NCBI RefSeq assembly: GCF_002943425.1
Contig: NZ_PTRA01000001.1
Location: 558,001-622,000, forward strand
Length of the DNA: 64,000 nt
Direction of reading: 5' to 3'
Source: Siphonobacter curvatus
GTDB lineage: Bacteria > Bacteroidota > Bacteroidia > Cytophagales > Spirosomataceae
Numbering within the stretch: the stretch's first letter is position 1; every line of letters starts with the position of its first letter. Below are positions 24,491 to 26,426 of this stretch, piece by piece. The position numbers and the translations under genes were made by a program. The notes beneath the pieces are model-generated. The model was given only the letters and a program-made list of their open reading frames with translations, was not told the DNA's origin and searched no databases.

Positions 24491-25243
24491 TTAGGCATTT
24501 AAATACTTCAAAACCTTTTCCAGGTCTTCAGGTGTATCTACGCAGGGGCTATCGTAAGTCGTTTCTACCATCCGAATTTTATAGCCGGCTTCGAGCCATC
24601 GGAGTTGCTCCAGCGACTCGGCTTTTTCTAGGGATGAAAGCGTAAGTTGCGTAATGGCCTGCAGAATATCCGTACGATACGCGTACATGCCCACATGCCG
24701 ATAGTAGGTATGGTACAAGTGCCATTCTTGAGGCGGATAGTTACGCAGGTAAGGAATCGCCTGACGACTGAAGAGCATCACTTCACCCTTATTGTTAAGG
24801 ACTATCTTCGCTTCGCCTGGATCGTGCAGGGTTTCCGCTGACGTGACTTTAATCATCTGCGTAGCTAATTCTACTTCTCCATCTAAAGCATCCACTAATT
24901 CATTGATCTGAATGGGATCTAGAAAGGGTTCATCTCCCTGAATGTTCAGTACATACTGCACGGATTCGGGAGCCTGATGCGTTTCTGCCCAACTCGTAAA
25001 AGCTTCCCAACAGCGATCTGTACCACTGGGATGATCTTCACGCGTAAGTACGGCTTTACCGCCAAAGTTCTGGACGTGTTCAGCAATACGTACATCATCG
25101 GTGGCAACAATAACCTCCATCAGTTTTGAAGCCTGGGCGGCTTCGTATACGCGTTGAATCATGCTTTTGCCCTGAATGTCGGCCAGGGGTTTACCCGGAA
25201 AACGGGTCGAAGCATAACGGGCGGGAATGATTCCTAATACCAT
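24491..25243 (-). CDS. kdsB: 3-deoxy-manno-octulosonate cytidylyltransferase
   Basis: A 250-residue CMP-Kdo synthetase that activates Kdo with CTP for lipid A core assembly. The N-terminus GIIPARYASTRFPGKPL is the CTP site; VLTREDHPSGTDRCWEA, NIQGDEPFLDP and SLEKAESLEQLRWLEAGYKI are typical of the family. The next gene upstream on the same strand (25413-26426) carries a KdsD-like CBS pair, which may place both in Kdo metabolism, though a terminator-like hairpin separates them. Confidence 0.96.
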   Translation of the reverse strand: MVLGIIPARYASTRFPGKPLADIQGKSMIQRVYEAAQASKLMEVIVATDDVRIAEHVQNFGGKAVLTREDHPSGTDRCWEAFTSWAETHQAPESVQYVLNIQGDEPFLDPIQINELVDALDGEVELATQMIKVTSAETLHDPGEAKIVLNNKGEVMLFSRQAIPYLRNYPPQEWHLYHTYYRHVGMYAYRTDILQAITQLTLSSLEKAESLEQLRWLEAGYKIRMVETTYDSPCVDTPEDLEKVLKYLNA

Positions 25244-25412: not shown

Positions 25413-26426
25413 TTAATCGTTCTTCAAATCCTGAATATCCAGCATCCCTACGGGCTTGCCGTTTTCGGTGACCAGAATCGTATCTACGCTGGTTTTCTTG
25501 AAAAGAGCAGCAGCGGCGTCCAGCAATTCGGTACTTTCGATAGAAATAGGCGTTCCGTATTCGAAATCTCCCATTTTCTTCGACAGCACATCGCGACCAC
25601 CGTCAGCCAGTTTCCGGCGAAGATCACCGTCAGTAAATACACCTTTCAGGTTACCGGCTTCGTCAACAACCGTAACACAGCCAAAGCCGTATTCAGTCAT
25701 TTTTACGATGGCTTCCGTCAAGGAGATATCCGTCGTAACCGTTGGGTTGATGGTATTGATCGCCTGACCTACCGTGACCGTGATCAAACGCGTATGCTCG
25801 ATGAACTGGTTCGTACCGATAGCCGTGAAGTTGTTTTCTGTCAGGGCTTTCATCAGTTTCCAGGGCACAGTAATGGTGTGGCAACCCAGGTCGATGGCGT
25901 TCCGTACGTGCTCGGTATTCCGTACTGACGAGAACATTACTTTTGAATCGAAACCGTAGGCTTCAACCAGTTCTACTACGTCACCGATCAGCGTCAGGGC
26001 GTCGTATCCCTGATCCTGCATCCGTCCGGCCAGTACGCAAATGTAAGTAGCACCAGCTACGGCTGCCATGTACGCCTGTTGGATGGTGTATACCAGGTGA
26101 ACGTTTACTTTCAGTCCTTTGTCAACCAGCGTGCGGCAAGCTTTAACGCCTTCCAGCGACACGGGGATTTTAAATACCGTACGCTTAGGGTCCAGACCCA
26201 GAGCCAGTTGGCGTTCCGCGTCGGCTACAATATCGGCGGCGGTTTCACCCAGTGCTTCAATCTGAAGAACGGGTACAATTTTAGAAAGCTCCACGATCGT
26301 TGCATCCAGGTCACGAATTCCTTCGCGGTGCATGAACGTGGGGGTTGTGGTAAGACCGGTTAGAAAACCGAGTTGAAATGCCTCTTTGATTTCTTTTAAA
26401 TCGGCAGAATCAAGATACAACTCCAT
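25413..26426 (-). CDS. Transaldolase/fructose-6-phosphate aldolase-like enzyme fused to a CBS pair
   Basis: A 337-residue two-part protein. Residues 1-215 are a TalC/FSA-type transaldolase: it starts MELYLDSADLKEI, has the Schiff-base lysine in FKIPVS (Lys86, matching FSA Lys85), and AGRMQDQG (Arg135). The usual TTNPS motif reads TTTPT, so the conserved Asn28 of FSA is Thr28 here. Residues from about 222 form two CBS domains, with GFGCVTVVDEAGNLKGVFTD and GDLRRKLADGG, strikingly like the CBS pair of KdsD (arabinose-5-phosphate isomerase). It likely makes or breaks C-C bonds of sugar phosphates, with the CBS pair as a ligand sensor. FSA enzymes can make arabinose 5-phosphate in vitro from glycolaldehyde and glyceraldehyde 3-phosphate, so a Kdo-supply role is possible but unproven. 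Confidence 0.85.
   Translation of the reverse strand: MELYLDSADLKEIKEAFQLGFLTGLTTTPTFMHREGIRDLDATIVELSKIVPVLQIEALGETAADIVADAERQLALGLDPKRTVFKIPVSLEGVKACRTLVDKGLKVNVHLVYTIQQAYMAAVAGATYICVLAGRMQDQGYDALTLIGDVVELVEAYGFDSKVMFSSVRNTEHVRNAIDLGCHTITVPWKLMKALTENNFTAIGTNQFIEHTRLITVTVGQAINTINPTVTTDISLTEAIVKMTEYGFGCVTVVDEAGNLKGVFTDGDLRRKLADGGRDVLSKKMGDFEYGTPISIESTELLDAAAALFKKTSVDTILVTENGKPVGMLDIQDLKND

Follow-up and report, generated by a model that had tools for sequence, protein, structure and literature searches.

How does a bacterium make Kdo, a core sugar in the outer membranes of most Gram-negative bacteria, when the textbook source of its precursor, KdsD, is not to be found in its genome? Siphonobacter curvatus raises this question through a gene that joins a transaldolase-type barrel to a pair of CBS domains and stands beside kdsB. 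We examined this gene in the 64,000-nucleotide stretch of DNA that carries it (the window), in the remainder of the host genome, and in related genomes, and we suggest that the fusion is probably a non-orthologous replacement of KdsD that supplies D-arabinose 5-phosphate (A5P) to KdsA. The features at issue are the following.

25413..26426, minus strand: transaldolase-CBS fusion gene (337 aa, P0001, ATG start)
25791..26426, minus strand: TAL/FSA-type TIM barrel, residues 1-212 (Pfam TAL_FSA; Foldseek 1vpx and 3r8r)
25422..25748, minus strand: CBS pair, residues 227-335 (two Pfam CBS matches; best solved match the KdsD CBS pair 4o9k)
24491..25243, minus strand: kdsB, CMP-Kdo synthetase gene, next gene downstream of the fusion (NF003952)

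The initial annotation had described a transaldolase-CBS fusion beside kdsB with a CBS pair resembling that of KdsD, and each part of this description is borne out by profile and structure comparison. The open reading frame matches the coordinates given and runs on the minus strand, a detail that the annotation left out. Pfam TAL_FSA spans residues 3-201 of the fusion (E 1.3e-32; 113.7 bits against a cut-off of 27), two CBS stretches follow C-terminal to it (1.2e-16), and kdsB follows on the same strand after a gap of 169 bp, its identity given by NF003952 (303 bits against a cut-off of 193) and by scores above cut-off for four of the five NCBIfam kdsB models matched. Foldseek aligns the AlphaFold prediction of the fusion (mean pLDDT 87.7, pTM 0.58) with two transaldolases, 1vpx and 3r8r, along roughly 210 columns and with a TM-score of about 0.9 by target length, at 31-33% identity to these two among the matches listed. 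The TAL_FSA fold and Lys86, the latter found in 80/80 relatives, place the protein among the class I aldolase/transaldolase barrels, and every NCBIfam TAL/FSA model that matches it scores under its cut-off, the highest being TIGR00875 at 148.9 against 245.95 bits. A contig search returned relatives at 65-100% identity over at least 334 of the 337 residues, of which the best 80 of 148 were confirmed, and the closest named ones are from Siphonobacter (loci L006-L010). With full-length relatives and an invariant active-site set, the conservation of the fusion is far beyond chance.

In the assembly of the host genome (6.39 Mb, 99.93% completeness), KdsD was sought with TIGR00393 (E <= 1e-3) and with the SIS profile PF01380 (E <= 1e-5), and neither search found it. 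At these thresholds TIGR00393 matches only the CBS part of the fusion and the CBS stretch of a 513-aa ORF that is IMPDH-like by its size, and PF01380 matches only GmhA and a 616-aa ORF with two SIS domains, an architecture that points to a GlmS-like protein. A hidden or lone-SIS KdsD was ruled out as well, as the sole candidate SIS ORF (205 aa) is GmhA, scoring above cut-off. The fusion itself has no SIS catalytic domain, and TIGR00393 aligns to it only at profile positions 155-267. Other Kdo genes are present in the host: a KdsA that scores above cut-off for two of the three NCBIfam Kdo8P synthase models matched stands in a row with kdnB and a kdnA-like gene on one strand (C1:3.149-3.154 Mb; L122 9657-13501), and this kdnA is 74% identical to the copy at locus L063, whose best solved match is KdnA (5k8b). 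KdnA and KdnB are reportedly the subject of work by Gattis in 2013. From the run of kdnA-like gene, kdnB and kdsA, the host probably makes 8-amino-Kdo (Kdo8N), a sugar that PMC6357163 calls a Shewanella hallmark. The fusion adjoins kdsB but lies 2.6 Mb from kdsA, a distance that counts against our reading, and no kdsC-like gene was found in the window or in the other host stretches examined. An ordinary transaldolase with the TTNPS motif is also encoded by the host (L002).

Whether the absence of KdsD from the host is part of a pattern was addressed in an order sample of 242 genomes from the host's order, with KdsA called at E <= 1e-60. The fusion is in 63 of these genomes, KdsD in 149 (148 above cut-off and G542, a partial SIS match that was counted in) and KdsA in 210. 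The KdsA genomes divide into 146 with KdsD only, 61 with the fusion only, two with both (G402 and G413) and one with neither (G432, an assembly 94% complete and 6% contaminated), and the genomes lacking KdsA comprise one with KdsD only (G433), 31 with neither gene, and none with the fusion. The fusion is accordingly distributed as a KdsD equivalent would be, present with KdsA (63/63) where KdsD is absent (61/63). The mutual avoidance of fusion and KdsD has a Fisher p of 2e-49 among KdsA genomes and 9e-31 across all 242, both values uncorrected for relatedness, and the two states occur side by side within eight families (f1, f2, f53, f54, f58, f62, f65 and f66) and within genera g7 (G146, G462 and G481 versus G527) and g206 (G487 versus G443 and others). 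Beyond the order, an even phylum sample of 296 genomes holds the full-length fusion in five, all with KdsA and without KdsD, and 50 fusion genomes reached through hand-picked loci (50 of the 80) include 48 without KdsD above cut-off. The two remaining genomes of these 50, and the two of 63 in the order sample in which KdsD is also present, count against a replacement. The initial annotation had allowed that a normal kdsD in the host would speak against a role in supplying a Kdo precursor, and that a wide and unrelated distribution would weaken the link to kdsB; no such kdsD was found by either profile, and in the order sample the fusion occurs solely with KdsA. Together with the complementary distribution of the two genes, the absence of KdsD from the host lends support to the supply role that had been suggested.

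Several further genomes merit comment. At least four in the phylum sample, all outside the host's class (G023, G200, G268 and G284), have KdsA and gave neither KdsD nor the fusion, which speaks against a perfect rule and would reflect either assembly gaps or a third source of A5P. In G542, a 227-aa ORF beside kdsA (C14:79417-80659) matches only the SIS half of KdsD and is perhaps a KdsD without a CBS pair in the host's order. KdnB was dropped as an obligate partner of the fusion, being found in only 49/63 fusion genomes at E <= 1e-60, so Kdo8N would be common but not required among them. In the g206 genomes with KdsD (G443, G554 and G560), the identity of KdnB to the L063 query is only 47-48%, a hint that a second Kdo8N lineage may exist.

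Gene order ties the fusion to the same pathway. Clustering of the ORFs around 80 fusion loci places a KdsA-like gene directly upstream, a KdsC-like HAD gene directly downstream and then kdsB, with KdnB- and KdnA-like genes further upstream. When only loci with enough flanking sequence are counted (at least 1.2 kb for kdsA and the kdsC-like gene), kdsA lies within 1.2 kb upstream in 44/76 and the kdsC-like gene within 300 bp downstream in 43/74, the fusion sits between the two in 34/70, kdnB and kdnA are each found upstream in 28/63, and kdsB is within 1.2 kb in 25/74; all five genes accompany the fusion in 13 of the 80 loci. The kdsB adjacency first remarked on belongs to a broader association with kdsA, the kdsC-like gene, kdsB and kdnA/kdnB, and kdsB linkage as the main signal has been superseded by the link to kdsA. 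A point against our reading is that none of these genes was found in its expected place in 16 of the 70 loci with at least 1.2 kb on both sides, and only one of those 16, L035, has a Kdo gene elsewhere in its flank (kdsB, on the other strand). Of the 63 fusion genomes of the order sample, 35 have kdsA on the same strand no more than 1 kb upstream, and in the other 28, the host included, no kdsA was found within 3 kb on that strand.

The operon at L063 exemplifies the full arrangement, with KdnA matching 5k8b (E 3.9e-130), KdnB matching 5k8c (E 5e-124) and KdsA above cut-off; its KdsC-like protein is a weak match (4e-12) below cut-off. This HAD gene (L063 7071-7784) matches no Pfam family at 0.001 and scores well under the KdsC cut-offs, and the kdsC-like genes of fusion operons perhaps represent a distinct type of Kdo8P phosphatase. 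Six Runella loci (L012-L014 and L019-L021) have no kdsA, kdsB, kdsC-like gene, kdnA or kdnB within 6 kb of the fusion, and in L012 and L020 the gene next to the fusion resembles, by eye, a queE-type radical SAM protein. A metagenome-assembled genome named Azovibrio restrictus (L069) carries kdnA, kdnB, kdsA, fusion, kdsC-like gene and kdsB as in Bacteroidota, and its label is probably a binning or naming error.

A natural control is available in genus g3 of the host's family, where six genomes (G249, G393, G464, G516, G528 and G570) have KdsD and no match to the fusion. In all six, the kdsC-like gene directly follows kdsA across a gap of 61-181 bp with no fusion between them, which is the arrangement of the fusion operon minus the fusion, and in four of the six kdnB stands just before kdsA. 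The simplest reading of a kdsA-kdsC junction that holds the fusion, or that lacks it in genomes with KdsD, is that the fusion replaces KdsD. The KdsAs of these genomes are 91-92% identical to that of the host. In our tree of 48 rows they group in one clade (support 100/100) with every one of the 27 fusion-genome KdsAs included, a subset of the 63 fusion genomes drawn mostly from the best-scoring loci. At such identity the same substrate is expected, in g3 presumably the product of KdsD, and judged from these genomes the host-type KdsA should use A5P. Both systems occur as separate units in G402 (loci L124 and L126) and G413 (L125 and L127), each with two KdsAs: KdsD lies 0.4 and 5.5 kb, respectively, from one KdsA on the other strand, and the fusion follows the second KdsA by 136 and 165 bp. 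These two genomes could reveal whether the KdsD and fusion routes serve different sugars.

The C-terminal half of the fusion also recalls KdsD. No solved structure matches it better than the CBS pair of KdsD, 4o9k (5.6e-13), and a characteristic motif lies in the fusion pair.

25614..25643, minus strand: GVFTDGDLRR, KdsD-type CBS motif, residues 262-271 of the fusion

The pattern G-I-x-TDGD-x-RR is present in 18/18 KdsDs examined (that of E. coli and 17 from the host's order) and G-(V/I)-FTDGD-x-RR in 73/80 fusions, the other seven departing from it, and the stand-alone CBS proteins that we examined carry FTERDYARK or FSERDYARK at this site (7/7). The structural match and the TDGD-x-RR motif together identify a C-terminal CBS pair of KdsD type. 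A KdsD origin argued from profile score alone was dropped: some stand-alone CBS proteins equal the fusion CBS pair by TIGR00393 score, so that a KdsD ancestry is likely and still short of proof. In KdsD itself, the CBS pair binds CMP-Kdo, and KdsD CBS structures contain it. Whether CMP-Kdo or CMP-Kdo8N would likewise be the ligand of the fusion CBS pair seems to us evenly balanced.

If the regulatory half resembles KdsD, what might the catalytic half do? We aligned the fusion with E. coli FsaA, E. coli TalB and the host's ordinary transaldolase, and the following codons stand out.

26169..26171, minus strand: Lys86 codon, Schiff-base lysine (aligned with FsaA Lys85 and TalB Lys132)
26343..26345, minus strand: Thr28 codon, donor-pocket change 1 (Asn in FsaA and TalB; pocket per PMC13259622)
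26097..26099, minus strand: His110 codon, donor-pocket change 2 (Thr in FsaA and TalB; pocket per PMC13259622)
26037..26039, minus strand: Cys130 codon, donor-pocket change 3 (Ala129 in FsaA, Ser176 in TalB; pocket per PMC13259622)
26256..26258, minus strand: Glu57 codon (aligned with FsaA Gln59 and Glu61 of the host's ordinary transaldolase)

The set D6-TTTPT-E57-K86-N108-H110-C130-L132-R135-S167-R169 is invariant in all 80 fusion relatives and in 26/26 further distinct sequences at identities down to 56%. As had been noted from the sequence, Lys86 is present and TTNPS has become TTTPT (residues 26-30), with T28 in place of FsaA Asn28 and TalB Asn35; the Asn of TTNP, which FsaA, TalB and the host's own transaldolase all have, is Thr in every one of the 80 and 26 sequences. 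TalB Glu96, which we take to be the counterpart of E57 as catalytic glutamate, sits two columns away from it in the alignment. Like the FSA/TalC-type transaldolases (TIGR00875; 3r8r, 1vpx, 1l6w), the fusion has a single-domain TIM barrel, the Schiff-base lysine, Asp6 and the phosphate-site residues; D6, K86, R135 and S167 are kept, as are Glu57 and Asn108 of the host transaldolase and Arg169 of TalB. It differs from them in the added CBS pair and in the substitutions Asn28 to Thr, Thr109/156 to His110, Ala129/Ser176 to Cys130 and Tyr131/Phe178 to Leu132, and the three of these that fall at FSA donor-pocket positions (T28, H110 and C130) are altered in 80/80 relatives. A 2026 engineering paper (PMC13259622) assigns Asn28, Thr109 and Ala129 to the FSA donor pocket and Ser30, Arg134, Ser166 and Lys168 to the surroundings of a putative phosphate site, and reports A129S/S30T/K168R as a beneficial engineered variant. 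With T30/R135/S167/R169 against S30/R134/S166/K168 in FSA, the fusion has kept the phosphate end, Thr30 and Arg169 included, and rebuilt the donor end. The changes to Leu132 and His110 would also rebuild the site of the catalytic water, so that ordinary aldolase chemistry cannot be assumed.

A5P is fructose 6-phosphate minus C1 in its carbons and its stereochemistry, and thus a transaldolase-type site working with a two-carbon donor would give A5P. In the mechanism that we propose, the two-carbon aldehyde glycolaldehyde would form a Schiff base on Lys86 of the barrel and add to glyceraldehyde 3-phosphate, and A5P would be released in the configuration that transaldolases already set at carbons 3-5 of fructose 6-phosphate. 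KdsA would carry A5P on to Kdo and, with KdnA/KdnB, to Kdo8N, with no arabinose-5-phosphate isomerase needed, and the CBS pair may exert feedback control through CMP-Kdo or CMP-Kdo8N. That the fusion supplies A5P in some manner we consider very likely, and, given such supply, Schiff-base C2 chemistry of some kind would be just as strongly expected; that free glycolaldehyde is then the physiological donor could go either way. We know of no rich physiological source of glycolaldehyde, which counts against the aldolase reading, and this source is its weak point. Light and Anderson are said to have found in 2014 that A5P inhibits transaldolase. The proposed reaction has an engineered precedent in PMC9947464, which treats FsaA/TalB as A5P aldolases. 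In the synthetic pathway described there, run both in vitro and in E. coli cells, E. coli FsaA joins glycolaldehyde to glyceraldehyde 3-phosphate to form A5P; what was synthetic there would here be a natural biosynthetic step.

A different chemistry could yield the same product. The fusion may be a ribose-5-phosphate 2-epimerase that forms A5P from R5P, its C2 epimer, on a Lys86 Schiff base, a reading that we regard as unlikely. Two routes would be open to it: removal and return of the C2 proton with His110/Cys130 as acid/base, or retro-aldol cleavage and re-addition. L-ribulose-5-phosphate 4-epimerase, an enzyme of another fold, uses the latter. Such an epimerase would require no free glycolaldehyde, R5P is always available, and two non-ionizable donor-pocket residues have become ionizable in all 80 relatives and all 26 further sequences (Thr to His110, Ser/Ala to Cys130); against it, no R5P 2-epimerase activity is known to us for any enzyme of the transaldolase family. 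Given glycolaldehyde and glyceraldehyde 3-phosphate, TalB F178Y yields A5P as well as R5P (Yang 2019, as cited in PMC9947464), so a transaldolase fold can reach both epimers, but the position altered in that variant is Leu132 in the fusion, not Tyr. Both chemistries give A5P, and the aldolase reaction of glycolaldehyde with glyceraldehyde 3-phosphate appears the most likely. A fuller claim would have KdsD supplanted, across many genera of a single Bacteroidota order and some outside it, by a transaldolase-fold R5P 2-epimerase under allosteric control of CMP-Kdo or CMP-Kdo8N through its KdsD-type CBS pair. This is improbable in our judgment; if true, it would add an enzyme activity not known before and give A5P a second origin in nature.

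Readings that do not have the fusion making A5P fare worse. A purely regulatory or sensory fusion, with A5P made by an unrecognized enzyme, is very unlikely: CBS pairs are sensors and the catalytic-water site is altered, but Lys86, Asp6, Glu57 and the phosphate-site residues are invariant in the 80 and 26 sequences, and the fusion is the gene missing between kdsA and the kdsC-like gene in the six g3 genomes with KdsD that were examined. The long branch of the KdsA clade of fusion genomes (1.18 changes per column, 100/100) might instead suggest that the fusion makes another aldose phosphate from which the linked KdsA builds a different ulosonic acid. The same clade includes the g3 KdsAs, close relatives of the host's in genomes with KdsD and no fusion match, which weakens this proposal, as do the cut-off scores of the host KdsA for Kdo8P synthase. 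KdnA and KdnB act downstream of Kdo, which also tells against it; we hold a different ulosonic acid to be highly improbable. Fold and family would also fit an ordinary transaldolase regulated through a CBS pair and linked to Kdo genes by chance. This idea is scarcely credible, as the fusion falls under the cut-off of each NCBIfam TAL/FSA model that it matches and its association with KdsA and against KdsD is too strong, and an ordinary housekeeping role was ruled out because the host already has another transaldolase with TTNPS.

The replacement of KdsD by the fusion, with A5P as its product, thus remains our preferred reading. Relative to KdsD/KpsF/GutQ, the arabinose-5-phosphate isomerases described by TIGR00393, the fusion would hold the same place in the pathway and has, as they do, a C-terminal CBS pair with TDGD-x-RR, its genome distribution is complementary to theirs, and it differs in having a transaldolase barrel where KdsD has its SIS catalytic domain. 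Relatives of both Shewanella Kdo8N genes, KdnA and KdnB (5k8b and 5k8c), occur in fusion operons, where in Bacteroidota they are joined with kdsA, the fusion, and the kdsC-like gene or kdsB. Among the literature matches listed, no title points to A5P formation by a transaldolase-CBS protein, in a search whose scope took in few subscription papers. The domain families and the Kdo pathway are each known, and their combination and the replacement of KdsD appear to be new.

If this reading is true, a second and unrelated source of A5P, spread across several Bacteroidota families, would explain Kdo-pathway genomes that lack KdsD. The fusion would be a natural A5P-forming class I aldolase, or else a new epimerase, and its CBS pair a feedback module carried by a different catalytic domain. 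For some Bacteroidota, it would be a novel way of solving a long-standing metabolic problem, the start of Kdo synthesis.
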